The notes below the pieces were generated by a model, which saw nothing but the letters and a program-made list of their open reading frames with translations, ran no database searches and was not told where the DNA came from. Positions 13,929-43,336 of a DNA stretch of 64,000 bases are shown piece by piece. The stretch's first letter is position 1. Every line of letters begins with the position of its first letter. The translations under genes were made by a program, and so were the position numbers. The DNA is from Citrobacter amalonaticus. Lineage in GTDB: Bacteria; Pseudomonadota; Gammaproteobacteria; Enterobacterales; Enterobacteriaceae. The stretch is from the NCBI RefSeq assembly GCF_018323885.1, contig NZ_AP024585.1, positions 2,852,001-2,916,000 on the forward strand, read 5' to 3'.

Positions 13929-14924
13929 ATGGGTCGCAAACGCGCACCCGGTAACGAGTGGATGCCAAAGGGCGTTTTCTTTCGCCCTTCTGGTTACTAC
14001 TGGAAACCAGGTGGAACAACAGAAAAACTGGCACCTGCCGGCGCCTCAAAATCAGAGGTATGGATCGCTTTCGAGAAGGTGGTTGAAGGCAGGAAAAATA
14101 TACTTACCTTCTCCCAACTGTGGAAGAAGTTCCTCAACAGCACGGATTATGCAGATCTAGCCCCGCGAACACAGAAAGACTATCTGGCACATGAAAAATA
14201 TCTGCTGGCTGTTTTCGGTGATGCAGAGGCTAAAGCCATTAAGCCAGAACATGTCAGACGCTACATGGATGCCAGAGGAAAGAAAAGCCGTGTCCAGGCC
14301 AACCATGAACATAGCTCGATGTCTCGCGTTTATCGCTGGGGTTATCAACGCGGCTTCGTTCCTGGTAATCCATGTGTTGGTGTGGACAAGTTCCCCAAAC
14401 CACAGCGTGATCGCTACATCACAGATGAAGAATACCTGGCGATTTATGAACACGCCAGTGAGCCGGTTAAAGCCGCAATGGAAATAGCTTATTTGTGTGC
14501 AGCGAGGGTATCCGATGTACTGAAGATGGACTGGTCCCAGATAATGGAAGAAGGGATTTTCATCCAGCAAGGCAAAACTGGTGTTAAGCAAATAAAGGCA
14601 TGGACTGAACGTTTACGAGCAGCAGTGGATCGGTGTCGAGCATGGGGAGAGGATGGTGCGGTCATAAAAACTATGTATGGAGAGCGTTACTCTTACAAGG
14701 GGTTTAACGAGGCATGGCGAAAAGCGAGGACAGCAGCTGCCAATAAGCTTCGAAGGCCTATTGACTGTACTTTTCATGACCTGAAAGCAAAAGCAATTTC
14801 TGATTATGATGGTTCCACCAGAGATAAGCAGAAATTCAGTGGCCATAAAACAGAATCTCAAGTAATTGTCTATGACAGGAAAATAAATATCACTCCAACA
14901 TTAAATAAAAAAGCCCCTCTTTGA
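13929..14924 (+). CDS. int: tyrosine recombinase (prophage integrase)
   Basis: This 331-aa integrase should join the phage att site to the tRNA-Ser gene and reverse the reaction with an accessory factor. An N-terminal arm-binding region (KRAPGNEWMPKGVFFRPSGYYW), a core-binding SAM-like domain (about 60-150, FSQLWKKF... YLAHEKYLL) and the catalytic domain (about 160-325) follow in order. Active-site residues seen are Arg in LCAARVSDVL, Lys in QQGKTG, His in TFHDLKAK (the usual second Arg is Lys here), His in FSGHKTESQ and Tyr in VIVYDRK. Its stop lies inside a convergent terminator. The Lys in place of Arg should be checked against close relatives. Confidence 0.93.
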   Translation: MGRKRAPGNEWMPKGVFFRPSGYYWKPGGTTEKLAPAGASKSEVWIAFEKVVEGRKNILTFSQLWKKFLNSTDYADLAPRTQKDYLAHEKYLLAVFGDAEAKAIKPEHVRRYMDARGKKSRVQANHEHSSMSRVYRWGYQRGFVPGNPCVGVDKFPKPQRDRYITDEEYLAIYEHASEPVKAAMEIAYLCAARVSDVLKMDWSQIMEEGIFIQQGKTGVKQIKAWTERLRAAVDRCRAWGEDGAVIKTMYGERYSYKGFNEAWRKARTAAANKLRRPIDCTFHDLKAKAISDYDGSTRDKQKFSGHKTESQVIVYDRKINITPTLNKKAPL

Positions 14925-14930
14925 GGGGCT
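14912..14930 (-). terminator. convergent terminator between int and the cargo operon
   Basis: AGCCCCTC-TTT-GAGGGGCT is flanked by A's on the left, so on the minus strand it is followed by TTTTTT and ends the three-gene cargo operon. It overlaps the last codons of int and could also slow plus-strand transcription. Confidence 0.82.
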
Positions 14931-15387
14931 ATTTTCGTGTATAGTAATTTTTCAAATTGGCGCATTCTTCTTGTATTTCTTTAATTCTAAAGTCACCCAC
15001 GGATAATTTACGCTGTAGTGTTTTGTCGTCATTATAAGCTTCAGTAGTAATTGCTCTTCTTAAAGAAATAAAGTTGGCATTATTATATTTTTGGCCTTTA
15101 TATTTTTCAATTTCTTTCGCAAGCTGAGTTATATCTTTAATAGATCGAGTTAATTTTCCAAGCTCCAGAATTTCATTCTTATTATTTTCGCCCATCCAAA
15201 AATCAATAGCATCATCCTCTAAGGTTGAAATTGCTTTCTTTATATCGCCAATCCAAGAATTTCTAGCATTTCTGAGCAAGAACCTCCATCCAGCAAATAC
15301 AGAAACTACCCAACCCAGAATGACCAACATCCAAGTCAGCCATTGTTGTGGTGTTGTTCCATTTAGAAAAGTTTTTATATCCTGCAT
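14929..15387 (-). CDS. single-pass membrane protein, third gene of cargo module
   Basis: I do not recognise this 152-aa protein. It has one clear membrane segment (about residues 16-37, WLTWMLVILGWVVSVFAGWRF) followed by a basic stop-transfer (LLRNARN) and a long, charged, helical cytoplasmic part with coiled-coil character. There is no enzyme motif. It starts two bases after the STAS-like gene ends and runs into the terminator. An effector or membrane anchor for the two upstream proteins is a reasonable guess only. Confidence 0.72.
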   Translation of the reverse strand: MQDIKTFLNGTTPQQWLTWMLVILGWVVSVFAGWRFLLRNARNSWIGDIKKAISTLEDDAIDFWMGENNKNEILELGKLTRSIKDITQLAKEIEKYKGQKYNNANFISLRRAITTEAYNDDKTLQRKLSVGDFRIKEIQEECANLKNYYTRK

Positions 15388-15388
15388 T

Positions 15389-15742
15389 TTACTTTTTTCC
15401 GTTCTTTGCTATTAGAGCTTTATTTATATAATCCTTAATTTCATCAATAAGCTCAGGTTCTTCATTTGAAATAAATGTAAATTTATTTACAATTTTGGCC
15501 GGCACCCCTTCACGGATTAACCCACCAAACCCTTCTTCAAGAAAAGAAGAACCATATCCAGCTGAACCATCAAGATCAATAACAACCTCGGAGTCCTTAT
15601 TCTGTATAAAATCATCACCATAAATTTTATTGATTTGGGCAATCAAATATTGCTTAAACTCCTCACCTGATTGAGGTCCTAATTCTCTAAACCTCGCACC
15701 TGGGAATGGAAATTTATCTGCTACTTTTATTAAATGTTTCAC
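15389..15742 (-). CDS. STAS-like DUF4325 protein, second gene of cargo module
   Basis: This 117-aa protein resembles the DUF4325 STAS-like family: after the N-terminal strand region (FPFPGARFRELGPQSGEEFKQYL), SEVVIDLDGSAGYGSSFLEEGFGGLI carries the strand-loop-helix with a Ser pair where STAS phosphoacceptor or binding loops lie. STAS proteins commonly pair with GHKL ATPases as switch partners. It overlaps the ATPase gene by four bases (ATGA), so the two should be made together. The function in this element is unknown. Confidence 0.75.
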   Translation of the reverse strand: MKHLIKVADKFPFPGARFRELGPQSGEEFKQYLIAQINKIYGDDFIQNKDSEVVIDLDGSAGYGSSFLEEGFGGLIREGVPAKIVNKFTFISNEEPELIDEIKDYINKALIAKNGKK

Positions 15743-16863
15743 AATACCACCTCTTTGTCCAAACTATCAATGTCTAACGGTATTGACCATTCAACAATTG
15801 TACCACACATACTTAAATTATGCTCGGTTAATTTATCTTTAGCTACGCCATTCTCTCCATAATATCTATAATAACCTTTATTGCTAAATATAGACAAATT
15901 ACCTACTTTAAACTGATTAATAATAGATAAAACATCAGACAGCCCTTTCCCTCTATTATTTTGATTAGTTCTAGTTTTACCCATTCTGGTTGCTGCTTTA
16001 ATTAAAGCCGAGTCAGTTTTAGTTTTAATATTAAGTAAACCAAGTGTTTTATTAACTAAGTCTGCCCCCCATTTAATAGGCAAAGAACTCGGGATGCCAA
16101 TTCCTTTATCACAAATAACCACGATTAATTTATCTTTATGTACTCCAGCGAATGCCCACCACTTTGTTGCAATTTCATCATCAGCATCGTAGTAAGCATG
16201 TTCGACAGAGTTTGCCATTGCCTCACTAAATCCTTTATATAACTTCCGCTTGGCGGCACGCCCTATTTTGTTTTCAATCTCAATCATTGCGCTCTGGGTT
16301 TTTTGAAGTTCTGATTTTGCACCAGATGCGTAATTCCAATATGAAACATCATCAAAAACTTTAGTTTTACGAGATTCTTTTCCAACAAGATCATAAAAGC
16401 CAACTTGTTTTAGTATACTTTCAGTTTTTTCGTTTTTAGGGTGTTTGAAAGTAATTGCCTTTGATTTGAAAGGTGAAGTCTTCAGAATCAAATCGACCTC
16501 AGATAAAAAACAAATCATCGCACTTGCCGTAATGATAGTGGTTTCATCAAAGTTTATTGATATTTTATTTCTTTGCGATTCCTTTCTAATTTTATTGAAA
16601 AAAGAAACAGTTTTGGTATAGTTATGTTCATAATAAAAATCAATATATTGAGGGGCAGGTATTGATTTTCTTTTATAAGCAATTGTCTTTATAAACAATT
16701 TACTCTTACAATTTATTTTCTTTTTCTTGGCCAACGTTAAGGAGTTTTTATGTATCGAATACACATCACCACTTAATAAAGTATTTTTCAATTTCAGTTT
16801 AAACTGAAACATCATAGCTCTTTTGTTCTTTCGCTTTATAATACGATTCATATAAACATCCAT
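15739..16863 (-). CDS. GHKL-fold ATPase, first gene of cargo module
   Basis: This protein of about 374 aa has a C-terminal histidine-kinase-like ATPase domain: N-box in EAMANSVEHAY (about residue 210), G1 in DKGIGIP, G2 in NRGKGLSDV and a final GTIVEW strand. The N-terminal 190 residues are Lys-rich and unfamiliar, with a STAS/ATPase-like SINFDETTIITASAMICFLSEVD stretch. There is no sensor, DHp or receiver part. Start choice is uncertain: ATG 16863 or 16851, with a TTG at 16890; none has a strong ribosome site. The DNA is clearly AT-richer than its surroundings, which suggests acquisition. Confidence 0.75.
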   Translation of the reverse strand: MDVYMNRIIKRKNKRAMMFQFKLKLKNTLLSGDVYSIHKNSLTLAKKKKINCKSKLFIKTIAYKRKSIPAPQYIDFYYEHNYTKTVSFFNKIRKESQRNKISINFDETTIITASAMICFLSEVDLILKTSPFKSKAITFKHPKNEKTESILKQVGFYDLVGKESRKTKVFDDVSYWNYASGAKSELQKTQSAMIEIENKIGRAAKRKLYKGFSEAMANSVEHAYYDADDEIATKWWAFAGVHKDKLIVVICDKGIGIPSSLPIKWGADLVNKTLGLLNIKTKTDSALIKAATRMGKTRTNQNNRGKGLSDVLSIINQFKVGNLSIFSNKGYYRYYGENGVAKDKLTEHNLSMCGTIVEWSIPLDIDSLDKEVVL

Positions 16864-16937
16864 TCTATGATTTGAACAAAAAACAACCAATGGCCTACAA
16901 TGCTTCTATGATACTAAAAGGGTTGAAATTGGTAACT

Positions 16938-16969: not shown

Positions 16970-17040
16970 ACGAGACTTTGGTCACTGAAAAGGCATTGGT
17001 TAAGTGATTGAATTGTGGCGGAGAGAGGGGGATTTGAACC
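16970..17040. other. prophage attachment junction (att) at the serU 3' end
   Basis: The phage sequence meets the chromosome at the 3' end of the tRNA-Ser gene, within or just left of about 17016-17040. The tRNA is intact, so the phage must carry a copy of the 3' end as its core. The exact core cannot be set because the other att site is outside the window. Confidence 0.65.
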
Positions 17041-17105
17041 CCCGGTAGAGTTGCCCCTACTCCGGTTTTCGAGACCGGTCCGTTCAGCCGCTCCGGCATC
17101 TCTCC
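17016..17105 (-). tRNA. serU: tRNA-Ser (CGA)
   Basis: This 90-nt gene folds as a class II tRNA with a long variable arm. The acceptor stem is GGAGAGA at the 5' end (17105) paired with TCTCTCC, the CCA end is encoded, the T-arm contains GGTTCAAATCC, and the anticodon loop CTCGAAA gives anticodon CGA, reading UCG. It lies between the prophage and mtfA, as serU does in E. coli, and its 3' end is the integration target. Confidence 0.95.
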
Positions 17106-25690: not shown

Positions 25691-26623
25691 TTAAATGCGA
25701 GTTTGTCCGTGGCTGATGTTGACGGGCATCCCCGAACGGCGTTCGAGCGCTTCGCTGACACGGTTCGTATCCACACCCTCAGCGCTCATAAAGCTACGCA
25801 TCACAGGTGTGATCGGCAGCGGGACTTTTCTGTCAGATTCATATTCCGCGCGGTTGCGGGACAGTGGTTCATGCACTTCTATCCAGCGGCTACCGTCAGG
25901 TTCCGTCGTGGTTTTCACCGGCTGATCGATAATCTGCACGCGGGTGCCGACGGGCACGTTCTGGAAAAGATGTTCGATATCATCATTGCGTAAACGAATG
26001 CAGCCCTGGCTCACGCGCAGACCAATGCCGAAATTTGCGTTGGTGCCATGAATAGCGTACAGCTTGCCGATATAGATGGCGTACAGCCCCATCGGGTTAT
26101 CCGGCCCCGCAGGAACGAAGGCGGGCAGGCTTTCTCCTCTGCTTGCGTATTCACGGCGGGTATTCGCCGTCGGCGTCCAGCTCGGCGCCTCTTGCTTACG
26201 CTCGACTCTCGTCACCCAGTTACGCGGCGTTTCTCGTCCTGCCTGGCCAATACCAATCGGGAAAATCTCAACCGTGTTGCTGCCGTTTGGATAGTAGTAA
26301 AGACGCATCTCTGCCACGTTCACAACAATGCCCTGACGAACGGTAGCAGGCAGAATGATTTGCTGCGGCACAATCAGCGTTGAACCCGACTTCGGAAGGA
26401 ACACATCCACATCCGGATTCGCTTCCAGCATATTACTCAGCCCCTGCCCATACTGAGCGGCAAATGCTTCAAGCGGTTGCGTATTCTTGTCGGGAACGGT
26501 AATCGTCAGCGGATTTCCAACCAGACGACTTCCTTCAGGTGGCAGTGGATAGCTGACAGCCAGCGCGCTCTGGCTTGCAAGCAGCATAAATAATGAACAA
26601 AACAATTTTACACGAGGCAACAT
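25691..26623 (-). CDS. erfK: ErfK (LdtA), L,D-transpeptidase
   Basis: This 310-aa periplasmic enzyme attaches Braun lipoprotein to meso-diaminopimelate in peptidoglycan. Residues about 1-23 are a signal peptide ([17 protein letters not shown]). A LysM-like segment follows ([23 protein letters not shown]...), then the YkuD domain with the catalytic motif [20 protein letters not shown], Cys as nucleophile. The ATG at 26623 gives the known family length; the frame opens 11 codons earlier. It is divergent from nothing and convergent with a tRNA-Asn. Confidence 0.95.
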
Positions 26624-26742
26624 TTCCCTTTCCTCAGTCGCGGCAGATGTGGGCAAATTATAGCGTTTTTAAAGGCGATTAACCTCTTCTCTCACGCTGA
26701 CCAGCAAACTGCGCGGTTTACCGGCCAGGCAAGGTCACTTTA

Positions 26743-27807
26743 TTACGCTTCTTTGCCATCCGGCAGCACGATATTGCTGGCCGCCAGTTCTCCCATGTTG
26801 CTGTACATCGCGCAGGCCGCTTCCACAATCGGCATCGCCAGTGCAGCACCGCTCCCCTCCCCCAGGCGCATTCCCATGTTGAGATAAGGTTCGAGCTCCA
26901 GGTGCTCCAGCGCAATCCGTGCGCCCTTTTCGGCGGAGAAATGTGATGGGATCAGATACGGTTTGATCTCCGGCGCAATCTGACAGGCGGCCAGCGCAGC
27001 GGAATAGGACAGGAAGCCATCCAGCAACACCGGTAAACCGCAGGACGCGGCGCCCATGATAACTCCCGCCATGCCCACCAGGTCAAATCCACCGACTTTC
27101 GCCAGCACATCCACCCCATCATGCGGATTGGGCTGGTTGACGGCAATCGCCCGGCGAACCACCTCCACTTTATTGCCTACACGGGAAAGCGGCAGGTTAG
27201 CGCCAATTCCCACCACCGCTTCAGCCTCACTGCCTGTCAGGACGCTAACAATCGCCGCAGCAGGCGTGGTATTCGCCATCCCCAACTCGCCAACGCCAAA
27301 CAGCGTCACGCCGCGCTGCGCCTGTTCGCGTGTGTAGCGAATGACTTCCAGCAGTAGCTCTTCCGCCTGCGTACGGCTCATCGCAGGGCCAGTGGCGATG
27401 TTTCCACACCCACGTGCGACGCGCATGTTCACTACGCCGGGGATGAGTTCAGCATCAATCCCCACGTCGATCACATGAACCTTTGCACCGGCATGAGCGG
27501 CAAGCACACAAACGCCCGTCGTGCCGCGCGTCATATTTGCCGCCTGAATGGCGGTCACCACTTTAGGCGAAACGGCAACCCCTTCATCCCAGACACCGTG
27601 ATCGGCGCACATCACCAGTATCGCTTTTTCACCGACACGCGGTACACCGTGTAGACCTGGCATACCGGCCAGCTGTACCGCCAGCGCCTCCAGCCGACCC
27701 AGGCTACCGGGCGGTTTAAGCAGGCCATCAATATGCTGTTGCGCGCGTGTCATCGCGCCACGGTCTGGCGGCGGAATTTCGCGGAGTAAAGAGGTTAACG
27801 TTTGCAT
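26743..27807 (-). CDS. cobT: CobT, nicotinate-nucleotide:DMB phosphoribosyltransferase
   Basis: This 354-aa enzyme makes alpha-ribazole phosphate from dimethylbenzimidazole and nicotinate mononucleotide for the lower ligand of B12. The family start [13 protein letters not shown], the long glycine-rich core ([35 protein letters not shown]) and the C-terminal [13 protein letters not shown] with the catalytic Glu are seen. I use the ATG at 27807, which matches the family start. It is the last gene of the cob operon, 25 bases after cobS. Confidence 0.96.
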
Positions 27808-27832
27808 ATGCGTTCTCATTGTGTTGGCTGAC

Positions 27833-28576
27833 TCACAGCAGAGCCAGCAGGAATATCAACTCGCCAAGTTCTATTGCCGCACCCAGCGTATCGCCGGTTT
27901 GCCCACCCAACGTCCGTTTTAACAGTTGTCCCAGCAGGAAGACAGACACCATCGTCACGACCAGTGCCGCCACCCCCTGCATTCCAGGCAACAGAACCGC
28001 CGCCAGAATCGCGGCCAGACCAAGGGTAAAACAGGTTTGCGTCCCGGTGACATGACCGATAAACACGTTGCCTAATCCCTCTTCACGGGCGTAGCGGTGG
28101 CGATACATCAACAACACGGCTGTCCCACGCCCAACGGCACAGGCGGCTGCCAGCGCGGCCAGCACAGGAGTGCCGCGTAGCGACAGTTCACTGATCACCA
28201 GCACTTTCGCCAGCAAGACAAAAATGAGCGCCAGACCGCCGTGCGTTCCCAGTCGGCTGTCGCGCATAATCTCCAGCATACGTTCGCGGCTGCGGGCGGA
28301 GAAAACGCCATCGCAGGTATCAGCCAGACCGTCGAGGTGAAAGCCCCCGGTCATCAGCGCCAGCGCTAACACGGTAAAGAGCGCCGCCAGTGGTGCGCCG
28401 CACCAGGACTGAAAGAGCATAAACACCAGCCCACTCAACGCGCCGAGTAGCAGACCGATGAGCGGGAAAGTCACAATACCGCGAGAATACTGATCGAATT
28501 CCAGTCCCTGCGACCAGCGACCCGGAACGGGCAAACGCGTAATAAAAGAGAGCATTGCCCAGAACAACTTACTCAT
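27833..28576 (-). CDS. cobS: CobS, cobalamin-5'-phosphate synthase
   Basis: This 247-aa integral membrane enzyme joins adenosylcobinamide-GDP with alpha-ribazole phosphate. It has about six membrane segments and the conserved acidic motif [37 protein letters not shown] that binds metal and substrate. Its length equals Salmonella CobS. Its ATG overlaps the cobU stop by four bases. It acts with cobU and cobT in nucleotide-loop assembly. Confidence 0.96.
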
Positions 28577-29118
28577 TTAATTTTGACTCCAATACCAGAT
28601 ACCACCAGCCAGACCTCATCCGCCGCTGCCGCCAGACGCTGATTCACACGCCCGGCGATATCCCGAAAGTGCCGCGCCAGACGGTTTTCCGGCACGATCC
28701 CCATCCCGACTTCGTTGGTCACTAGCACCACCCTGGCCGGACATCGCTGACAGGCCGCGATCAGCGTCTGGATCTCCGCCTCAATCGCCGTTTCCAGCGC
28801 GGCGTAATCCCAGCTATCGGGGTCACTGTCGCCGCCCAAAGCAAACAGCAGGTTAGTGACCATCGTGGTGATGCACTCCAGTAGAATGGCTTCATCCGGC
28901 GCGTTATCCGCAGTGATCAGCGCATCAAGATGCTGCCAGCGCTCGGCGGTACGCCAGTGCGCTGGACGTCCATCACGATGATGCTGAATGCGCGCTGCCA
29001 TTTCGTCATCAAAAATCTGCGATGTCGCGATGTACAGCACCTGCGGGAAATCAGCGATCAGGGCTTCGGCATGACGACTCTTACCGCTGCGTGCGCCGCC
29101 AGTGACCAGAATCATCAT
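28573..29118 (-). CDS. cobU: CobU, adenosylcobinamide kinase/guanylyltransferase
   Basis: This 181-aa bifunctional enzyme phosphorylates adenosylcobinamide and then adds GMP. The P-loop [12 protein letters not shown] is at the N-terminus, HHRDGRP contains the guanylylated His region and the C-terminal [28 protein letters not shown] is conserved. The first of two adjacent ATGs gives the family start MMILVTGG. It overlaps cbiP by four bases. Confidence 0.97.
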
Positions 29119-30635
29119 ACTGACTCCCGATGTTGCTGCATGATGGTATAAATTTTCTCAATATCGATGTGTTGCCGCATCGCATCCGCCAGCAGATCAA
29201 ACTGCTGCGATTTATATTGCGCGTATTGGAAGGTGGGATCCAGGGGAGTCAGCCCCTTACGCACGCGCAGGCCATTGACCAGCGCTCGCGTAAAATCATC
29301 ACTGTCGAACAAGCCATGCAGATAAGTCCCAAACGCTCGTCCGTCGGCAGTGACGGCACCATCCGCGACGTTTTCGCCGTGCTTCTGCAGTTGCATCACC
29401 GACTGGCAATCGCCGTTCAGCGTCGTTTCGCCCATGTGAATTTCATAACCGCGCACTGGCAACCCGGACGCGGCAGACAACCAGTCCGGCAATGTCGACG
29501 ACATCGTCGCCGTTACCTGGGTCGTGGTTTTCCGCTGGGCAAAATGCGTTACCGTATCGAGCAGCCCCAGACCCGGTAGCGTTCCCAGCCCTGACTCGAC
29601 CTCATCGATAATGGTTTCGCCCAACATCTGGTAGCCACCACAGATCCCGCCAATGGGGATGTTTTGTTGGTGCGCCTGCAATACCGCGTGGGCCATGCCG
29701 CTTTCACGTAGCCACACCAGATCGCCGAGCGTATTTTTACTGCCCGGCAGGATCACCAGGTCAACGTCCGCCAGTTCTTGCGGATGACGCACATAGCGCA
29801 CGCGCACATCGGGCTGCGCGGCCAGCGCGTTAAAATCGGTGAAATTGGAGATATGCGGGATCTGCACCACGGCAATGTTGATGTCGCGTTTTTCCGTGCG
29901 CAGGTATTTCCCTTTTTGCAGCGCCACGCCATCTTCATCTTCGAGATCGACATCCAGCCACGGCATCACGCCCAGCACGGGAACGCCGGTCAGGCTTTCA
30001 ATCTGCTCAATACCGGGATTAAGCAACGCCACATCACCACGAAACTTATTGATGATCACCCCTTTCACCCGCGCACGCTCGTGTTCATGCAGCAGCGCCA
30101 GCGTACCGTAGATTGAGGCAAACACCCCGCCGCGATCGATATCGGCGACCAGGATCACCGGGCATTGCGCCATCTCGGCCATCCCCATATTGACGATGTC
30201 GCGGTCACGCAGGTTGATCTCCGCCGGACTACCCGCCCCTTCCAGCACCAGTACATCAAACTCCTGCGCCAGACTGGTGTAAACGGAAAGGATCTGCTCG
30301 CGCAGACGCGGCTTGTATTCGTGATAGCTGACCGCATCCATATCGGTCGCCACCTGTCCCATCAGCACCACCTGCGCCTTGCGATCGCTGGTCGGTTTCA
30401 ACAGCACCGGATTCATGCGGACATCTGGCACAATGCCCGCCGCTTCGGCCTGGAAAATCTGCGCGCGGCCCATCTCTTTCCCCTCCGGCGTGATGCCGGA
30501 GTTGAGCGCCATATTCTGCGACTTAAACGGTGCGGTCCGCCGACCATCCTGATAAAAAATGCGGCACAGTCCCGCCACCAGAACACTCTTGCCGACGTCA
30601 GACGCCGTTCCCTGCAACATAATGGCCTGCGTCAT
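29115..30635 (-). CDS. cbiP: CbiP, adenosylcobyric acid synthase
   Basis: This 506-aa amidotransferase amidates side chains b, d, e and g of adenosylcobyrinic acid diamide with glutamine and ATP. The N-terminal ATP-binding domain ([20 protein letters not shown], then [15 protein letters not shown]) is followed by the class I glutaminase-like domain with [11 protein letters not shown] carrying the nucleophilic Cys. The ATG at 30635 gives the family length; the frame runs 11 codons further up. It overlaps cbiO by four bases. Confidence 0.96.
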
Positions 30636-31447
30636 GACGCCTCCTTGATTGCGCGTTGTCGCATACAACGGAAAAATTCATCTTCGGTTTTGCACAGCGG
30701 CATACCTAGCTCTGCGTGCAGTTTCACCAGCCAGGGTTGCGTTAACCCGGCCTCTTCAATCAGTTCTGTACGGGCAAAAACCTCACCCGGCTCACCGTGC
30801 GCCAGCACTTCGCCATGACGTAAAACGTAGACGGCATTGCTGACTTCATAAATCAGATCAATATCATGGCTGGAGATCACCACGTGATTTCCCTGCGCCA
30901 CAATCCGTTTGATGATGTCGATCATCTGGCTACGTCCTGAAGGATCAAGCCCCGCCGTGGGTTCATCCAGTAACAGGTATTTTGCCCGTAGCACCAGCGC
31001 ACCGGCGATGGCCACCCGCTTCTTTTGTCCGTGGCTTAAGCACTGAATCGGCTGCTGGCGAAAATGTTGCGCATCTACCAGCGTCAACGCTTCGTCGACT
31101 CGTCGGGCAATTTCTCCCTCCTCCACGCCAAGATTGCGCAGGCTGAAGGCGATATCGCTGTCGATATCGGTGTAGAAAATTTGCTGATCGGGATCCTGAA
31201 ACACCGTCGCGACCTGCTGACGCAGCGCCAGCAGGCCACGCTTACTGTAGTCCAGCGGTTTTCCCTGCCACAATACCGCGCCCTGTTGCGGTCGCAGTAA
31301 TCCGCTCAGATTCATAAATAGGGTGGATTTCCCACAGCCGTTGGCTCCCACCAGTCCGGTGACGGCATGCTGTGAAAAATCCAGCGTCAGCCCTTTAAGT
31401 ACATGCGCATCCTGATAACGAAACCAGAGTTCGGTGGTGGCAAGCAT
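30632..31447 (-). CDS. cbiO: CbiO, cobalt transporter ATPase
   Basis: This 271-aa ATP-binding subunit belongs to the CbiMNQO energy-coupling factor that imports Co2+ for B12. Walker A is GANGCGKST, the signature is [15 protein letters not shown], Walker B is [12 protein letters not shown], and the switch His is in [10 protein letters not shown]. It sits on the cytoplasmic face with CbiQ. It begins eight bases after cbiQ. Confidence 0.96.
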
Positions 31448-31455
31448 GCTTTTCC

Positions 31456-32133
31456 TTACAGGTGAAAATCGCCCTGATACAATTTGATATCTAACGTCGC
31501 CGCCATTTGCTGATAGCGATTCAGCACCCGGGTAAACAAAACGCCCACCAGCATCGCCAGCGAGCGATAGCCAATCGGCAGACTACGATAGCCAAAACGC
31601 AGCGTCTGCGCGCGATGAATCGCCATCGCTTCATCTAACAGAATAAAAATAAAGCGCCAGGTCAGCAGGATCTGTTCCGTCAGCAGACGCGGTATCCGCG
31701 CCCGTTTGAGCAGTAAAATCAGCTGCGGAAATGGCAGGTTAAGCACCAGCCAGAACGTGGCGGCCAGCGCGGCCAGACTCCGCCAGAACGTCTCGTTCGC
31801 GGTGTGCAGCCCAGACGCCGTGACCCCCAGCCAGTAACTGCCAAGCTGAAAACTGACCAACAGCGTTTGTGGGTCGCGGCTGACGCTGAACAGAATCGTC
31901 ACCACCCCCACCACCAGAAAACCAAACGGCAGCGCCATCCAGCGACACCAACGGCGCAGGGAGATGCGCAGCAGCCAGCAGGTCAGCCCGGCAATCAGCG
32001 CCAGCTCGATACCCTGTCCCCAGGCTGGCAGGGTAAACGCCAGAGTCATCAGCAGCAGCCAGAACAGGAACTTACGCTCTGGTGCGACATGAAACCAGCG
32101 GCTCTGATAGCTCAGTCGATCAAGCCCGGTCAT
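31456..32133 (-). CDS. cbiQ: CbiQ, cobalt transporter T component
   Basis: This 225-aa transmembrane subunit (EcfT-like) links CbiO to CbiM/N. About five membrane helices are visible, and a C-terminal region holds the two Ala-Arg-x-like coupling helices (RARIPRLLTEQIL and HRAQTLRFGYRSL). The second of two adjacent ATGs matches the family length. It overlaps the end of cbiN. Confidence 0.93.
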   Translation of the reverse strand: MTGLDRLSYQSRWFHVAPERKFLFWLLLMTLAFTLPAWGQGIELALIAGLTCWLLRISLRRWCRWMALPFGFLVVGVVTILFSVSRDPQTLLVSFQLGSYWLGVTASGLHTANETFWRSLAALAATFWLVLNLPFPQLILLLKRARIPRLLTEQILLTWRFIFILLDEAMAIHRAQTLRFGYRSLPIGYRSLAMLVGVLFTRVLNRYQQMAATLDIKLYQGDFHL

Positions 32134-32401
32134 CACGGCGTTGTCTGCCTTTGGTGTAGCCCAGAATATAGAAAATCACCGCCGCGCCAAGCGAGCCTTG
32201 CAACGTAAACAACAGGCTTTCAATTTCTCCGCTCGCCGGTTCATACAGCGGCTGGAACCACGGCTCATAATGCGGAGCAACCACCTGAATCTGGCTTTCC
32301 GCTTCACCGTCCGAGCCACCGTATTCACCACCGTGATTGATAAAGAACGGCAACACGACCAAAGCAATCACCATGGCTAACAATATCAGCGTCTTTTTCA
32401 T
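32120..32401 (-). CDS. cbiN: CbiN, cobalt transport accessory protein
   Basis: This 93-aa protein has two membrane helices (about residues 4-22 LILLAMVIALVVLPFFI and 65-85 FTLQGSLGAAVIFYILGY) and a periplasmic loop between them (GGEYGGSDGEAESQIQVVAPHY). CbiN assists CbiM in Co2+ loading. Length equals Salmonella CbiN. It starts one base after the cbiM stop codon region. Confidence 0.95.
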   Translation of the reverse strand: MKKTLILLAMVIALVVLPFFINHGGEYGGSDGEAESQIQVVAPHYEPWFQPLYEPASGEIESLLFTLQGSLGAAVIFYILGYTKGRQRRDDRA

Positions 32402-32402
32402 G

Positions 32403-33140
32403 TTAATGTCCTTGCGCGGTTATCAGTTGCCGTTTCGTCAGCTGGTCGTAGATCATCACGGTCAGCAAGCCTTCGGCGATAGCAATCGGGATCTGCGTCA
32501 GGCAGAAAATCCCCATAAACTTGACGACAGATCCTGGCGCGCCCGCTTCGGGATCCGGGAAGGCCACGCCAAGCTGTACAGATGTCACAAAGTAAGTCAC
32601 CAGATCCGCCAGCATGGCGCAGAGGAAGACGCCAACATCACGACGGACCCCGGCGCGACTGGCCATCTTCCACACCATATAGCCGACAACCGGGCCAATC
32701 ACCGCCATCGACATGCCGTTAGCGCCCAGGGTGGTCAAGCCACCGTGCGCCAGCAGCAGCGCCTGGAACAGCAGTACGATAGCGCCGAGAACCGCCACCA
32801 CGCCCGGACCAAACAGGATCACCGCCAGCCCGACGCCTGTCGGATGTGAGCAGCTACCGGTAACCGACGGGATCTTCAGTGCCGACAGCACAAAAATAAA
32901 CGCCCCGCACAGCGCCAGTAGCACTTTCTGATGGCTGTCATCCATCACGATATGTCGCAGGCGCACCAGTCCGTACCACAGGCACGGTAAAAACAGCAAC
33001 CACCAGGCCAGCGCCCACATCGGCGGTAAAAATCCCTCCATGATGTGCATGGCGAACGCCTGCTCCGGCACAATCATCAGCAATAGCGCCGCAGCCAGAC
33101 CACTGAATGACAGCTGTTTCAGCTGTTGTTCGAGTTTCAT
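32403..33140 (-). CDS. cbiM: CbiM, cobalt-binding transporter subunit
   Basis: This 245-aa membrane S component is the metal-binding part of the importer. It has an N-terminal signal-like segment (LSFSGLAAALLLMIVPEQAFA) followed by MHIMEGFLPP, whose His after processing binds Co2+ in the family. GSCSHPTGVGLAVILFGP adds the conserved metal-site loop. The open frame runs 44 codons upstream inside cbiL; I chose ATG 33140 for family length and for the four-base overlap with cbiL. Confidence 0.95.
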   Translation of the reverse strand: MKLEQQLKQLSFSGLAAALLLMIVPEQAFAMHIMEGFLPPMWALAWWLLFLPCLWYGLVRLRHIVMDDSHQKVLLALCGAFIFVLSALKIPSVTGSCSHPTGVGLAVILFGPGVVAVLGAIVLLFQALLLAHGGLTTLGANGMSMAVIGPVVGYMVWKMASRAGVRRDVGVFLCAMLADLVTYFVTSVQLGVAFPDPEAGAPGSVVKFMGIFCLTQIPIAIAEGLLTVMIYDQLTKRQLITAQGH

Positions 33141-33850
33141 TCTGCATACTCCCACTGTTTGTTGACCAGGATGGTCGAGAAATAAGGCAACGGCTGATCG
33201 TCGCTGACCTCGTTGAGATGCCGCCAGCACTGCTCTCCAGGGAGCGTGGCCTCGGACATCATCAGTGCACAATCCAGTAATCCGGCCTGATCCAGCAGCG
33301 CTTTAATCCGCGCAAAGCGACCATAGACCTTCATCAGTACCAGACTGTCGTGTTGACGTAGCGCCTGGGCGATCTCCGCTTCCGGTGCGGTACAGGAGAT
33401 CACCGCCAGCGACTGCTGTTCCATCGCCAGCGGCGTTTTGGATCGGGCGGCAATGGCGGCAAACGACGTCACACCAGGCACGATCTCCAGCCAGTCAGCA
33501 CACCCGATGCGCTGTAGTAAAAAGACCCAGGTGCTGAACAACATGGCGTCACCCAGGGTGATAAATCCCACCTGTTTGCCTGCCTCCACTTCCTTAACCA
33601 ACGCTGCGGTCACTTCATCCCAGACCGCCTCTTTTTCCGCGCTGTCTGCGCTCATGGGGAAATGGCAGCAACGAATTTCTGTGTTCGCACCGATGTACTC
33701 CCGCACGATGGAAAGCGCGAGGCTGTCGCCACCCTTACGTCCCGCCGGGGCATAGAGAATATCCAGTGAACCCAGAATACGTGAGGCGCGAACGGTGATC
33801 AGATCGGCTGCTCCCGGGCCGGTGCTCAGGGCGTACAGTTTGCCGCTCAT
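33137..33850 (-). CDS. cbiL: CbiL, cobalt-precorrin-2 C20-methyltransferase
   Basis: This 237-aa enzyme methylates C20 of cobalt-factor II using SAM. It has the tetrapyrrole methylase start GKLYALSTGPGAADLITVRASRIL and the glycine-rich GFITLGDAMLFSTW and GVTSFAAIAA loops. The frame extends upstream into cbiK; ATG 33850 overlaps the cbiK stop by four bases and gives the family length. Confidence 0.96.
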   Translation of the reverse strand: MSGKLYALSTGPGAADLITVRASRILGSLDILYAPAGRKGGDSLALSIVREYIGANTEIRCCHFPMSADSAEKEAVWDEVTAALVKEVEAGKQVGFITLGDAMLFSTWVFLLQRIGCADWLEIVPGVTSFAAIAARSKTPLAMEQQSLAVISCTAPEAEIAQALRQHDSLVLMKVYGRFARIKALLDQAGLLDCALMMSEATLPGEQCWRHLNEVSDDQPLPYFSTILVNKQWEYAE

Positions 33851-34641
33851 GCCGCTTCCTCCATCGCCACGCTCAGCGCTTGTTGCAAATGCGCGACGAA
33901 CATCGCCCGCACCGCCGGATTTTCGCCAAGACCGCTCAGCCACGGCGTTGCCGTGATCCCCGCCGCCGTAAACAGCGTTTTCCACGAATCATCGTCGTCC
34001 GAAGCCATATCATTGATGGCGTGATCCCCTGCCACCAGCATCAGCGGCATCAGATGGACGGCTTTGACCCCCTCTTTGCTCAGGCTCTCAATCAGAATAT
34101 CGACTTCCGGATAGCTCTCCACCGCGCCGACGCGCGCCGGGAAACCCTGCGCCATCATCATGTGGTCGAGGCAGGCATAAGCGGCAAACGCGTGATGGCT
34201 GGCGCCGTGGCCCATGAATACCACTTTCTCATTGGCGGCGGGGACAGGCATCTGCTGTTTCAGGGCGAGCATTAACTGCGCGTAATCGTCATGGCTGCTC
34301 AACAGCGGCACGCCCAGCGTCAGGCGGGCAAACAGCGGACGCAGAGTCTGCACTTCACGGACAATTTTTTCATATTCGTCGCCGTTAATGATGTGCAGCG
34401 ACTGAATCGCCACATCCTGATATCCCTGATCAGCAAGCTTTTGCAGCGCCTGCAGCGGGGTATCTATCTCAATACCATCACGCTGTTTGAGCTTGCGAAT
34501 AATCATTCCAGAGGTAAAGGCACGGAACAGGGTGCGGTCAGGACAGCTGGCGGCCAGATCGCGCTCGCAGGCCACAATGTTCTTCTCGCAGGTATCGTGA
34601 TAGCTGGTGCCAAAGCTAACCACCAGAAGCGCTTTTTTCAT
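33847..34641 (-). CDS. cbiK: CbiK, anaerobic cobalt chelatase
   Basis: This 264-aa cytoplasmic enzyme inserts Co2+ into sirohydrochlorin, the first committed step of the anaerobic pathway. The start KKALLVVSFGTSYHDT and the metal-ligand His regions VFMGHGASHHAFAAY and AVHLMPLMLVAGDHAINDM are visible. It depends on sirohydrochlorin made by CysG elsewhere. Eleven bases separate it from cbiJ. Confidence 0.95.
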   Translation of the reverse strand: MKKALLVVSFGTSYHDTCEKNIVACERDLAASCPDRTLFRAFTSGMIIRKLKQRDGIEIDTPLQALQKLADQGYQDVAIQSLHIINGDEYEKIVREVQTLRPLFARLTLGVPLLSSHDDYAQLMLALKQQMPVPAANEKVVFMGHGASHHAFAAYACLDHMMMAQGFPARVGAVESYPEVDILIESLSKEGVKAVHLMPLMLVAGDHAINDMASDDDDSWKTLFTAAGITATPWLSGLGENPAVRAMFVAHLQQALSVAMEEAA

Positions 34642-34652
34642 TTTCTGATTCC

Positions 34653-35438
34653 TTAAGCAGCGGCCAGCCAGCGCGCCAAACGTTGCGCAAATGCGGCCTG
34701 ACTTTCCAGTAACTCATCTCCCGTCACCAGCGGCGCCGGGCGGGTAATCACGATGCAGGGAATACCTGCATCCAGACAGGGTTGAACCTTTTCCTGATAA
34801 CCGCCCTCTGCGCCAGAAGCCTTGGTTATCACGACGTCAGCCTGACACTGACGATAAAACGCAGCGTTAAATTCAGCGCTGAACGGCCCGCACAGCGCGA
34901 ACGTCTCGCCTACGCCAAAGCCCAGATCGGCGCACTGTTGAATCACCTCGGGGACGGGCAACACGCGGGCGAGCAGCGTTTTTTCCGGTAAACCTGTGCG
35001 CCATATCGCCAGATCTTTACTCCCGGTAGTCAGCAGTACGCGCTCGCCAAAACGTCGTGCAACGTCGCACGCCTCGGCAATGCTCTGTACGGTAAAGAGC
35101 AGCGGATGCGTCAGTTCACTAAGCTGTTCCGGGCGCTGGTAACGACTCAGCAGCACGCCAGCCCGTTCGCAGGCGCACAGAATATTGCGGCTCACCACTT
35201 CGGCATACGGGTGCGAAGCATCGATCACCCATCGCGTTCCGTTCTCCTTCAGCCAGTTCACCATTTCATCCTGCTCGAGCCGACCACAGCGCACCTGCCC
35301 CTTGATATCGCCAGCCAGTTGTTTCCCGGTCGGCGTCGCCACCGACAGGGTGTAGGCCACATTAGCGGCATCCAGTTGCTGGCACAGCGCACGGGCATCG
35401 CTGGTGCCGCCCATGACCAGAACCTCACCAAAACTCAC
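34653..35438 (-). CDS. cbiJ: CbiJ, cobalt-precorrin-6A reductase
   Basis: This 261-aa NADH-dependent reductase converts cobalt-precorrin-6A to 6B. It has the nucleotide-binding start VLVMGGTSDARALCQQL, the mid-region DASHPYAEVVSRNIL and a C-terminal DVVITKASGAEGGYQEK typical of the family. Length is two residues below the Salmonella enzyme. It overlaps cbiH by four bases. Confidence 0.95.
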   Translation of the reverse strand: MSFGEVLVMGGTSDARALCQQLDAANVAYTLSVATPTGKQLAGDIKGQVRCGRLEQDEMVNWLKENGTRWVIDASHPYAEVVSRNILCACERAGVLLSRYQRPEQLSELTHPLLFTVQSIAEACDVARRFGERVLLTTGSKDLAIWRTGLPEKTLLARVLPVPEVIQQCADLGFGVGETFALCGPFSAEFNAAFYRQCQADVVITKASGAEGGYQEKVQPCLDAGIPCIVITRPAPLVTGDELLESQAAFAQRLARWLAAA

Positions 35439-36160
35439 AGCACGTAACCTCGTGGCGTGATCATCAGACCGTCCTGCACATAAGTCGCTTTGTTACCGAC
35501 GATCACCAGACTGGTCATATCCACCGGTTCAAAATCCATCTCGCCCAGCGTAGTCAGCCATTTCTCCTGCTTTTTACGCCCGGCAGATTTCACCACTCCC
35601 ACCGGCGTTTGCCCGCTCTTACTGGCGGAAAGCAGTTCAAATGCGCGCGCCAGATGTCCCTCACGGCCCCGGCTGCGCGGGTTGTAGAAGCAGATGACGA
35701 AGTCCGCTTCTCCGGCGGCGATAATACGTTTTTCGATAACCGGCCACGGCGTAAGTAAATCGCTTAAACTGATGTGACAAAAATCGTGCATCAGCGGTGC
35801 GCCGAGCAGCGACGCCGCCGCGATACTGGCAGTCATCCCCGGGATCAGGCGCACTTCAACGTCCAGTTTCTGTTTGCTGACCAGCTCCAGCACCAGCCCC
35901 GCCATGCCGTAAATACCGGCGTCACCGCTGCTGATCAGCGCCACGTTGTGTCCGGCCTGCGCCAGTTCAATCGCCGCATGGCAGCGCTCGATCTCTTTGC
36001 ACATGCCGGTTTTGATCACCTGCTTGTCACCGGTAAACGCTTTGACGAGGTGAGTGTAGGTTTTGTAACCCACAATAATTTCTGCCGCCTGCAGGGCCTC
36101 AACGGCTTCCATGGTCATCATGGCCTGTGAGCCGGGGCCGATTCCGATTACGGTTAACAT
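35435..36160 (-). CDS. cbiH: CbiH, cobalt-precorrin-3 C17-methyltransferase
   Basis: This 241-aa enzyme methylates C17 and contracts the ring of cobalt-factor III. The start [23 protein letters not shown], the ISSGDAGIYGMAGL loop and PGMTASIAAASLLGAPLMHDFCHISL mark the tetrapyrrole methylase fold. It overlaps cbiG by one base. Confidence 0.96.
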   Translation of the reverse strand: MLTVIGIGPGSQAMMTMEAVEALQAAEIIVGYKTYTHLVKAFTGDKQVIKTGMCKEIERCHAAIELAQAGHNVALISSGDAGIYGMAGLVLELVSKQKLDVEVRLIPGMTASIAAASLLGAPLMHDFCHISLSDLLTPWPVIEKRIIAAGEADFVICFYNPRSRGREGHLARAFELLSASKSGQTPVGVVKSAGRKKQEKWLTTLGEMDFEPVDMTSLVIVGNKATYVQDGLMITPRGYVL

Positions 36161-37215
36161 CAGTGTGAAACTCCCAAAGTGATAGTGACGCCCTGCTCAC
36201 GCAAGGTTTCGCCGGTCAATTGCCCATGACTCAGCAGCCATGCTGCCGGACCCGAGACGCTTCCGACACCGACCGTCTGGCGAACAAACGGCGAAGCCGG
36301 AAAGTGATGTTCATGCTCACGCAGCGCGTCAGCGGTAAAGGTTTCAAACGGCACACGCCAGCAGGAGGCAAGTTGGATCAGCCCCTCTTCGTCTTTCTTG
36401 AGCGACACGCTGCCGATGGCTTTCAGCGCCAGCGGATCAAAGCGCTGCGCTTCAAGCTGACGCGCCAGCAGCGCAGCCAGTAGTGGGAACGGCGTATCGC
36501 GACGACAGCCAATGCCAGCGACCACCCGTTGTGGCACCAGTTTCCAGTGTTGAACCGGAATATCCGGCAATTCGTTACGTAACGTGACGCACACCAGCGC
36601 ATCCAGTTCAGGCAACTGCTGGAGATCGGTAACGGTAATGAACCCACGGCGATCGCAGTGGCGGACGTCTTCATCCAGTTCTTCATCCCACCACAGTCCC
36701 ACGCGCTGGTTGCTCACCAGCATCTGATTCACCGCTTTTACTGCGGTGCGAAAGTCGGTCATACGGGCGTTGAGCTGAAACGCGAGGGTGTCCAGTGCCG
36801 CCATCTCATTGACATCGGTGGCAGTGGTAATCACCGGATCGGCGCCCAGCATGCCGGCGAGATAACGGGTCAGCGCGTTCGCGCCGCCCGCATGGCCCGA
36901 AAGCAGGCTGATCACATGCTGGCCGCGCTCGTCGATCACCACCACCGCCGGATCGCTGAACTTGTCATTCACCAGCGGGGCCAGCACGCGCACCGCGATG
37001 CCGGTCGCCCCGATAAAAATCAGCGCGGAATAGTTCGAAAACGCGTCGCGCGCGGCGTGGGCGAACCCGCCGTCGAACGGTAAGAAACCGTCCTCCAGCA
37101 ATTTTTCACTGGTAAAACAGGTCAGCGGTAACATCGCTGCCAGCCGTTTAGCCAGCATTACACCGCCGGGCGTCAGGCAAAACAGCGCGATTGATTCAGG
37201 CTTTACGGTATTCAT
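36160..37215 (-). CDS. cbiG: CbiG, cobalt-precorrin-5A hydrolase
   Basis: This 351-aa enzyme opens the delta-lactone of cobalt-precorrin-5A, releasing acetaldehyde. The N-terminal domain ([19 protein letters not shown], then [16 protein letters not shown], then [20 protein letters not shown]) is followed by a central linker and the C-terminal domain ([16 protein letters not shown], then [19 protein letters not shown]). The frame is open for 43 codons upstream inside cbiF; ATG 37215 matches family length and overlaps cbiF by 20 bases. Confidence 0.95.
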
Positions 37216-37969
37216 GGCTAAAGTCCGCGGCATAGAGTCTGGAGTAGTGATACTCATCTCCGAGGAAATTCCCGACCAGGATGAGCGCCGTTTTGCGGAT
37301 CCCGGCGTCGCGCACTTTATCGGCGATATCCGCCAGCGTGCCACGCACGGTTTGACTTTCCGGCCAGGTCGCTTTGTAGATCACGGCCACCGGTGTGGTC
37401 GCCGGGTAACCACCCTCAATCAACCGTTCCGCAACCCGGTTGATACGCTGGACGGAGAGATAAATTGCCATTGAGGTCTGGTGGCTGGCGAACGATTCCA
37501 GTTGTTCACGTTCTGGCACCGGCGTGCGACCTTCGAGTCGCGTAATAATCAGGCTTTGCGAGACTTCCGGCACGGTGTACTCAACCCCCAGTTCCGCCGC
37601 CGCGCCGAGGAAAGCGCTGACCCCCGGCACCACCTGCCAGGGGATACCACGTTTGGTCAGCTCTTCCCCCTGTTCGCGCACCGAGCCATACAGCGACACG
37701 TCGCCGGTTTGCAGGCGCACTACCGTTTTTCCGGCCTTCACCCCCTCTTCCATCAGGGTGAGGATTTGCTCAAGATGCAGTTCCGCACTGTCGTGGCACT
37801 CTGCGTCCGCCGGACAATACTCCAGCAACTCAGTGTTAATCAGCGATCCGGCATAAATCACCACCTGCGCCTGTTGCAACAGCCGGTAACCCTTAAGCGT
37901 AATCAGCTCCCGGTCACCCGGACCTGCGCCGACAAACCACACACAACGGGGATCAAATGTCTCAGACAT
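37196..37969 (-). CDS. cbiF: CbiF, cobalt-precorrin-4 C11-methyltransferase
   Basis: This 257-aa tetrapyrrole methylase methylates C11. It starts [33 protein letters not shown], then has [12 protein letters not shown] and [25 protein letters not shown]. The open frame continues ten codons upstream; ATG 37969 matches family length and overlaps cbiT by eight bases. Confidence 0.96.
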
Positions 37970-38534
37970 GGCGTTCTTCCTTCTGGCAGGCGATGACAAA
38001 AACGGGATTGTTCGGTTTGAAATAGTGACCCGCGCCCAGCGTGGTCAGCGACGAAATCTGCATTTGCAGGCAGTCCACGTCCTGCACACCGCGCTGTTGC
38101 AGATGTGCCAGCGCGGTGTTGAGGTTTTCCTGTAGGATGAATGTCATCACCAGGCGTCCACCAACGTGCAACTGGCGCATAGACCAGTCGATCAGTTCCG
38201 TGAGATGTCCCCCACTGCCACCCATAAAGACGGCATCGGCTTTCTCGGTCATCATCATTGGCGCTTCACCCGGCAGAATATCGATATTCGCGCAGGCGAA
38301 ATGCTGACGGTTTTCGTCGAGTAAACGCAGCGCCGCCGGATTGCGCTCGATAGCCGTGATGTGTAGCGACGGAAACTGTAGCGCGGCTTCGATGGACACA
38401 CTGCCGGTTCCGGCCCCGATATCAATCAGGTGACTGGCCCGGTGCAGTTCAAGTTTTGCGAGAGCGAGCGCACGTACCGCTTCTTTGGTCATCGGCACCT
38501 TCTCACCGCGCAGGAAAAGCTCATCTTTCATCAA
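37962..38534 (-). CDS. cbiT: CbiT, cobalt-precorrin-7 C15-methyltransferase (decarboxylating)
   Basis: This 190-aa class I SAM methyltransferase methylates C15 and decarboxylates the acetate on C12. The SAM-binding motif is [17 protein letters not shown], with [12 protein letters not shown] after it and [13 protein letters not shown] further on. Either of two adjacent ATGs could start it (38534 or 38531). It overlaps cbiE by 14 bases; CbiE and CbiT act on successive positions and are fused as CobL in aerobic pathways. Confidence 0.95.
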
Positions 38535-39126
38535 GGATCACCACTGCATTCATCTCATATTCGGCATGGACCTCGCTGACGCGCAGCCAGTGGATCCGTT
38601 CGTTTTCCATCGCCAGGTTTTCACCAATCACCATCCAGCGATCGCCCTTTCCTCGTGCAACCAGTTGTGCAGCAATATCACGCGGCCCGCACTGACCGTC
38701 GGTGACCATTGCCACCTTGTTATGCTGCGCCAGCGTATCGAAACAGACGCTGCGCCCGTGGCTACTGGTGAGCCACATGTCATTCATGTCGATTCCCGAC
38801 TGCGCGCACAGATACTGCACCGCGCTGATACCTGGAATGATGCGTACCTGCGCAACGCCAAAATGCGCCACCATCCGCGTACCGATGCCGTAAAACAGCG
38901 GATCGCCAGAAGCCAGAACCACCACCCGCTTATCCTGATGCGCCGCAATCCATGCCAGCAGTTCGGGAATGTTGGCGCCCAGCGCAAACTGCTCGCCGCG
39001 AAAGTCCGGGAACTGCTGCAAATGGCGCTTACCGCCGACCAGCACATCGGCCTCATCAACCGCCGCGCGCGCCGCCGGCGTCATCAGGTGCAGACCGGCT
39101 GGCCCCATCCCCACGACCGTCAGCAT
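38521..39126 (-). CDS. cbiE: CbiE, cobalt-precorrin-7 C5-methyltransferase
   Basis: This 201-aa tetrapyrrole methylase methylates C5. It starts [32 protein letters not shown], with [17 protein letters not shown] and [16 protein letters not shown] as the other two hallmark loops. It overlaps cbiD by seven bases and cbiT by 14. Confidence 0.96.
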
Positions 39127-40888: not shown

Positions 40889-40900
40889 TGTCATTTATCC

Positions 40901-43236: not shown

Positions 43237-43237
43237 G

Positions 43238-43257
43238 ACCCTGATCCTGTTCAGGGT
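43238..43257 (-). promoter_or_regulatory. RBS-sequestering hairpin ahead of cbiA
   Basis: On the minus strand ACCCTGA-ACAGGA-TCAGGGT is a perfect 7-bp stem that ends one base from the cbiA ATG. AGGA, the likely Shine-Dalgarno, lies in the loop. In the Salmonella cob leader such a hairpin is paired with the riboswitch to block translation when B12 is plentiful. Confidence 0.75.
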
Positions 43258-43336
43258 GGTAGGGATGTACTGACACCCAGTCTTCCGACTGTACGCATCT
43301 GAGCAACCCACTTCCCACCGAAGTTGTTGGTAGTAT

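Follow-up and report, generated by a model that had tools for sequence, protein, structure and literature searches.

A prophage-borne cassette of Citrobacter amalonaticus encoding GHKL, STAS-like and membrane proteins, a possible VapKSC-like switch

The three-gene VapKSC system, composed of a STAS-GHKL kinase, a STAS antitoxin whose serine is essential and a PIN toxin, has recently been described as anti-phage (Chambers et al., EMBO J, June 2026; PMC13373217). According to the passages of that paper drawn on here and below, it is built as a toxin-antitoxin unit whose third gene is the effector, and it gives ∼2-log protection against one phage, which is lost on mutation of the PIN residue, of the STAS serine, or of the residue proposed to bind single-stranded DNA (ssDNA) in the kinase (PMC13373217). 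The aromatic residues ascribed to ssDNA binding are F54 in VapK and W68 in CapK, a related kinase that responds to ssDNA and controls transcription (PMC13373217). Here, we compare with these systems a three-gene cassette from Citrobacter amalonaticus, which encodes a GHKL protein, a STAS-like protein of the DUF4325 family and a membrane protein. The cassette lies in a 64-kb stretch (the window; contig NZ_AP024585.1, positions 2,852,001 to 2,916,000) of the 5.07-Mb genome, and the window carries the right end of a prophage of ∼47.3 kb.

The cassette consists of three minus-strand open reading frames (ORFs):
14929 to 15387, minus strand: single-pass membrane protein of 152 aa, transmembrane segment at about residues 20-38, hydropathy 1.99
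15389 to 15742, minus strand: STAS-like DUF4325 protein of 117 aa (PF14213, E 3.1e-11)
15739 to 16890, minus strand: GHKL protein, kinase-like (phrog_3364, E 1.4e-54; HATPase_c below threshold)

The GHKL gene overlaps the STAS gene by 4 bp, and 1 bp separates the latter from the membrane protein gene, confirming the overlapping or abutting arrangement described in an initial annotation of this DNA. The start of the GHKL gene is uncertain (TTG 16890, ATG 16863 or ATG 16851), and its residues are numbered here from ATG 16851. The same annotation had called the cassette richer in AT than its neighbours, which holds: its GC content is 32.5% vs 46.8% for the adjacent integrase gene (int), and among 454 segments of the same size (1962 bp, taken every 100 bp) from the 47.3-kb prophage there is none with so low a value. 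Promoter-like sites occur at chance level (10 found vs 8.9 expected).

In our judgement, the cassette is a widespread membrane-protein variant of the kind recently described as VapKSC, and we read it with moderate confidence as a prophage-borne, VapKSC-like switch on a membrane effector. The two share the order of a GHKL kinase, a short STAS protein with a conserved Ser/Thr, and a third gene, and their STAS proteins are of like size (residues up to 116 are mentioned for VapKSC, and the protein here has 117 aa). In contrast to VapKSC, the third gene of the window encodes a single-pass membrane protein and not a PIN nuclease, the window-type kinase has a basic tail of ∼53 aa, and Ser65 and Ser66 of the STAS protein are both conserved. 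The word “transmembrane” is absent from the main text of the VapKSC paper (PMC13373217). Since a membrane protein stands third in place of PIN, the unit is not classed as VapKSC, but by analogy its mode of action is probably alike. The CapK-CapS pair is likewise a GHKL kinase with a STAS substrate that carries a conserved serine, and it is tied to immunity; it differs in the N-terminal helix-turn-helix (HTH) of CapK and the C-terminal winged HTH of CapS, which represses transcription (PMC13373217), whereas the STAS and membrane proteins of the window have no HTH match and no DNA-binding domain was matched in any of the three cassette proteins.

The reach of the unit was assessed with a profile of the STAS alignment against IMG/VR, which gave 162 relatives, of which 80 loci were kept; single-protein scans of the genome and viral collections gave no match. 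All 80 kept loci have a GHKL match directly upstream of the STAS gene and a further same-strand ORF (114-211 aa) directly downstream, where the third ORF was taken as the first of at least 80 aa with its start between 90 bp upstream and 250 bp downstream of the STAS stop. The same order is found in 6/6 plasmid or phage records, namely Marinobacter phage AS1 and plasmids of Vibrio (two), Novosphingobium, Leptospira and Acinetobacter. The case for a GHKL–STAS partnership had been made to depend on the three genes occurring together elsewhere, and these loci bear it out, although window-type units were collected mostly from viral contigs, where most of the searching was done. As in VapKSC, the kinase comes first, in all 80 viral loci, and its ATP-site residues are intact wherever they are present, its frame being broken or partial in L009, L014, L020 (at a contig end) and L062, whose third ORF, at 114 aa the shortest, runs to the contig end. 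The kinase gene of the Acinetobacter plasmid triad (L006:2224-4600) is also interrupted, apparently split by an ISAba14-type insertion sequence element.

The three genes have also diverged together. Clustering at 90% GHKL identity gave 67 clusters, including the window, and across 64 loci the Mantel rho was 0.61 for GHKL and STAS, 0.58 for GHKL and the membrane protein, and 0.46 for STAS and the membrane protein, while the largest value of 200 permutations was 0.20. Mean identities are 30% for the GHKL protein, 46% for the STAS protein and 18% for the membrane protein. The gene table of Francisella phage KIRK lists, behind cI, a 293-aa protein that resembles a Marinobacter phage AS1 protein, then a DUF4325 protein and a transmembrane protein, a row that is not discussed in the passages of the paper drawn on here (PMC7924643). 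Beyond this table, no paper on the membrane-type unit was found in the open-licence literature (main texts), and no entry for a three-gene unit was found under phrog_3364 or DUF4325; the window GHKL protein belongs to the former family and its STAS protein to PF14213, both of unknown function. As a caution, a figure legend on DefensePredictor mentions predicted systems with HATPase domains (PMC13092281).

The STAS-like protein scores 43.3 bits against DUF4325 (PF14213; curated cut-off 23). Seven of its residues (Ser66, Phe67, Leu68, Glu70, Gly73, Gly74, and Arg77) are identical in 87/87 STAS sequences and Ser65 is kept in 86/87, which makes Ser65-Ser66 a candidate phospho-site. The best Protein Data Bank (PDB) match of the STAS profile is the STAS structure 3t6o (E 0.15), aligned at the serine loop with GYGSSF over its GSSF; an alignment by eye places Ser65-Ser66 at what may be the position of SpoIIAA phosphorylation.

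The GHKL protein comprises a very basic N-terminal tail of ∼55-65 aa, a middle region of ∼130 aa, and a GHKL domain like that of SpoIIAB and RsbW. It scores 23.1 bits against HATPase_c (cut-off 26.4; E 1.1e-4), and its Pfam matches are to general HATPase models, with nothing specific to MutL, MORC or Hsp90. The ATP-site motifs named in the initial annotation are present and their residues are intact: across 87 GHKL sequences, E210 (84), N214 (85), H218 (85), D248 (86), G250 (86), G301 and G303 (85 each), and G350 and T351 (86 each) are invariant wherever the position is present, positions missing from the broken or partial frames (L006, L009, L014, L020, L062) being counted as gaps. RsbW and SpoIIAB are the best PDB matches of the GHKL profile (E 0.012-0.078; five of the seven matches listed), and the N-box EAxxNxxxHAY aligns with both, while the G1 box aligns with SpoIIAB. 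These matches, like that of the STAS profile, are weak, and the two agree with each other.

The resemblance to the SpoIIAB-SpoIIAA and RsbW-RsbV partner switches has limits. The window kinase has more than double the length of RsbW (141 aa), the unit has a membrane protein as third member, and no sigma or phosphatase partner was evident in the neighbour families listed. The NCBIfam anti-sigma models stay below their cut-offs (RsbW 19.7 bits, cut-off 145; spIIAB 16.5 bits, cut-off 135), no anti-sigma phosphatase appears among the neighbour families listed (25 of 30 upstream and 25 of 37 downstream), and the one sigma-like match is to sigma-70 region 4, in 5 of 86 downstream proteins. Sigma-factor control, raised in the initial annotation on the precedent of such pairs, was therefore set aside.

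The middle region of the GHKL protein is a candidate STAS domain, which would correspond to the N-terminal STAS domain of the VapKSC kinase. Its counterpart in the kinase of a PIN-type operon (L112), aligned with MAFFT, matches STAS_2 below cut-off (E 0.0055). The tail of the kinase has a median length of 53 residues in the family, with 31% Lys+Arg and 5.6% Asp+Glu, and its basic excess is above 0.15 in 62/63 representatives, which suggests nucleic-acid binding.

The third gene of the window encodes a protein with an N-terminal stub of ∼20 residues and a predicted cytosolic C-terminal domain. In 61/67 representative third genes, the first 70 residues include a hydrophobic stretch (1.3 or more over 19 residues), vs 46/288 control ORFs of similar length from the same loci, and the charge bias around it predicts a cytosolic C-terminus in 47 of these 61, the opposite in 5 and neither in 9, where charges are equal. 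Matches of the third protein in Pfam, PADLOC, PHROGs, NCBIfam and the PDB are weak, none being below E 0.02; the PADLOC-DB 2.0.0 match is to gop (E 0.025), and no PIN domain was matched in the window protein. The protein is thus a candidate effector, a label drawn from position and topology only, since it has no recognised domain and diverges fast.

Beyond the triad, DUF4325 was found in 29/398 genomes sampled across the phylum, and the triad-type STAS profile in 12/369 genomes of the class and 1/8 of the genus (the window's own genome included in each). In each of the ten long DUF4325 ORFs scanned, HATPase models are matched as well (best E no higher than 3.6e-4; three above the curated cut-off), and such fusions are a sign of the partnership between GHKL and STAS proteins that the adjacency of their genes in the viral and record loci had indicated. 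Weak, sub-cut-off HTH-type matches lie at the N-terminus of six of the ten. These six fusions (L106, L108, L109, L115, L117, L121) have no serine at the positions of Ser65 and Ser66 (6/6), and serine-less fusions of this kind are possibly self-contained, phosphorylation-free regulators.

Two further operons (L114:460-2366 and L112:810-2898) have the layout GHKL-like protein, DUF4325 protein and PIN gene, and thus the third gene of VapKSC; the PIN evidence is above cut-off in L114 (PF01850, 5.1e-8) and below it in L112 (PIN_12, 5.5e-6). This layout suggests that the DUF4325 family includes VapS-type antitoxins. A DUF4325 tree of 62 sequences was built from every second representative plus the genome loci (44 membrane-type, 10 fused, 6 untyped, and 2 PIN), the 6/67 representatives lacking a clear hydrophobic stretch being kept within the membrane type. 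A split with support 0.98 sets 43/44 membrane-type members apart, with no PIN or fused member on their side and L102 outside, so that by this tree the membrane-type unit forms its own clade.

The surroundings of the cassette in the window are as follows:
13929 to 14924, plus strand: prophage integrase, convergent with the cassette (PF00589, E 4.5e-12; phrog_1 integrase)
14912 to 14930, no strand: bidirectional terminator hairpin between int and the cassette
17001 to 17077, no strand: attR, 77 bp over the 3′ part of tRNA-Ser(CGA), with its attL repeat (94.8%) 47.3 kb to the left
17016 to 17105, minus strand: tRNA-Ser(CGA) gene

At a distance of 47.3 kb to the left, measured from the whole gene, there is a 77-bp copy of the 3′ part of the tRNA-Ser gene, at 94.8% identity and in the same orientation. 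The cassette is thereby placed within the prophage, with int on one side and attR on the other; the prophage begins ∼30.3 kb beyond the left edge of the window and ends near position 17,001. This repeat supports the attachment site that had been proposed from the window and confirms the place of the cassette between int and the attachment arm. A terminator of the cassette's own had also been proposed; a hairpin is present, but it is a single bidirectional one common to int and the cassette.

The distance from int to the tRNA is 2,091 bp in the window. A related integrase is found in 31/5,426 E. coli genomes (76-81% DNA identity among the 25 matches listed), and behind it 16 of the 31 carry an unrelated three-gene minus-strand cassette, which fills the space up to tRNA-Ser in the four whose gene tables were read; two of the other 15 were read, and there the slot is empty, with 112 bp from int to the tRNA. 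Within the bacterial family, 32/295 genomes have a related integrase, and among 19 such loci scanned for tRNA genes, 11 have a tRNA-Ser in the 1.5-kb flank behind int; it is tRNA-Ser(CGA) in four of these, with integrases 84, 82, 69, and 57% identical, and all four slots are empty. The tRNA-Ser(CGA) slot is therefore empty in 6 of 10 relatives of the window prophage and holds the unrelated cassette in 4, so that the earlier description of this place as usually free of genes fits the six and not the four. Compared with the 2,091 bp here, these loci indicate a slot that is often empty and able to take cargo of the cassette's size and orientation. Three phage records with a similar integrase have other genes behind int; their att site was not placed and they are outside these counts. 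At the DNA level, no copy of the window cassette turned up in the 5,426 E. coli genomes, although a divergent one would escape such a search.

The alternative E. coli cassette (L134:5798-8049 and L135-L137) encodes hypothetical proteins of 350, 143, and 265 aa and is a candidate defence system of a new type. No family or Pfam match above cut-off and no PADLOC match was found for it, and the PDB matches of its last protein are at chance level, while by eye that protein appears nuclease-like, with an ExK-like stretch. Elsewhere in the window, a GC-rich block at 26000-43500 (about 0.54-0.61) lies beyond four tRNA-Asn genes and is possibly an island; an 8-kb part of it (28000-36000) has no near match in the 5,426 E. 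coli genomes.

Neighbouring genes were called with a simple longest-ORF script in 60 non-redundant viral loci, giving 86 of 119 ORFs upstream (59 loci, L014 being out) and 86 of 116 downstream (60/60 loci); one upstream neighbour (L009) is apparently a fragment of the locus's own broken kinase. Upstream proteins match S24-type (27), HTH_3 (26), CI-type (6), YdaS (9), and P22-Cro (5) families, where Pfam matches can overlap, and nearly all upstream PADLOC matches are to HTH or control-protein models. The S24 and CI-type matches often put the module right after a CI-type repressor, as rexAB follows the repressor of lambda. Downstream, 8 proteins match the portal family PF04860 and 4 match an integrase; restriction genes, judged from the 25 listed of 110 matching PADLOC models, number at least 3 (one type II enzyme, one type I enzyme and one type I specificity subunit). 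A check proposed in the initial annotation was whether the neighbours are defence genes or integrases, which applies to these few; most are lysogeny, phage structural or unknown genes. Eight non-redundant loci, among the closest relatives, occupy the slot between the P2-type gpA and the portal gene gpQ, which is the old/tin locus, described as a hotspot of anti-phage systems in the passages of the source drawn on here (PMC9122126). Among the plasmids, the Vibrio triad L003:2675-6700 lies beside MazEF-like and FRG genes and the Leptospira triad L005:3920-6722 beside a nucleotidyltransferase/HepT-like pair.

Taken together with the VapKSC precedent, this location favours, by analogy, an anti-phage or exclusion role. 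In the resting lysogen, the STAS protein would bind and restrain the cytosolic domain of the membrane protein. Infection or DNA damage would switch the GHKL kinase on, perhaps through nucleic acid bound to its basic tail, and the activated kinase would phosphorylate the STAS protein at the putative Ser65-Ser66 site. Phosphorylation would then free the membrane protein, leading to membrane harm or a growth stop, and the competing phage would fail.

A number of observations weigh against this switch. The PDB matches of the GHKL profile reach E 0.012 at best, and hhalign of the N-terminal part of the kinase with DUF4325 gives a probability of 2.2%, so that a STAS domain there is not shown by profile. 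Six of the ten fusions have no serine at either conserved position, and the two PIN-type DUF4325 proteins have S/T at the Ser65 position and P/A at that of Ser66, in a different register. No effector domain is recognisable in the third protein, whose sequence diverges quickly; 6/67 third genes have no clear hydrophobic stretch, and the protein could be a sensor. At the class level (369 genomes), a GHKL profile match lies near 11/13 STAS matches, L101 and L103 being without, and the rule used gives no third ORF in L100 or L103. Finally, PADLOC-DB 2.0.0 gives 0 matches for the GHKL and STAS proteins, and known defence genes are rare around the module (the at least 3/86 downstream), which speaks against a general defence-island pattern.

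The strongest rival, though an unlikely one, makes the membrane protein a sensor of envelope stress or of an incoming phage, with the kinase-STAS pair as the output: the freed STAS protein or kinase would act on a different target, for example prophage induction or host transcription. A single-pass protein with a cytosolic domain that is the fastest-evolving part of the unit would suit this role, as sensors of variable ligands can be so, and the frequent position behind CI-type repressors would suit its output; but almost nothing of the window protein beyond its N-terminal stub is predicted outside the membrane, none of the three proteins has a recognised DNA-binding domain, and the third gene is the effector in VapKSC (PMC13373217). 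Ranked after it, and also unlikely, is a partner switch of lysogeny, in which the kinase would respond to DNA damage by tuning prophage induction or immunity, with no defence against other phages. Both the S24 repressor family matched by 27/86 upstream proteins and the response of CapK to ssDNA with its control of transcription (PMC13373217) point this way, whereas the membrane protein itself, the presence of the module on plasmids (any prophage context there left aside) and in the P2 gpA–gpQ slot, and the finding of the cassette in none of the ten prophage relatives read point away from it. We consider it improbable that the unit is addiction or general-fitness cargo, like a toxin-antitoxin pair and with no role against phages: VapKSC is itself a toxin-antitoxin unit and plasmid copies stand beside toxin-antitoxin pairs, but the module also occurs in phage slots known for exclusion genes (PMC9122126), and VapKSC protects against a phage (PMC13373217).

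Last in our ranking, and very improbable, is that the GHKL protein acts as an ATPase of the clamp or chaperone type (MutL, MORC or Hsp90-like) and the STAS protein as a scaffold. ATP-site motifs are common to GHKL proteins in general, and the kinase activity is putative. Against a clamp stand the serine kinases RsbW and SpoIIAB as best solved profile matches (in the five of seven noted above), the invariant STAS serine, and Pfam matches restricted to general HATPase models.

If the VapKSC-like switch on a membrane effector is right, the kinase-STAS immune switch, first described in 2026, would gain a branch that acts at the membrane and is widely carried by temperate phages, in positions where exclusion genes accumulate. 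More tentatively, and with somewhat more doubt than belief, we propose a new phylum-crossing, phage-borne immunity family in which a nucleic-acid-triggered serine kinase would open a STAS latch that holds back a pore-like or membrane-disrupting protein, and in which the kinase-STAS pair would be a general plug-in switch for interchangeable effectors: a PIN nuclease in VapKSC, a membrane protein in the window type, and a DNA-binding output in CapKS and perhaps in the fused HTH-HATPase-DUF4325 proteins. If the switch acts as proposed, DUF4325 and phrog_3364 would gain a testable role, with the serine and asparagine residues named, and partner switching, classically a sigma-factor device, would have been reused as a latch on a membrane protein.

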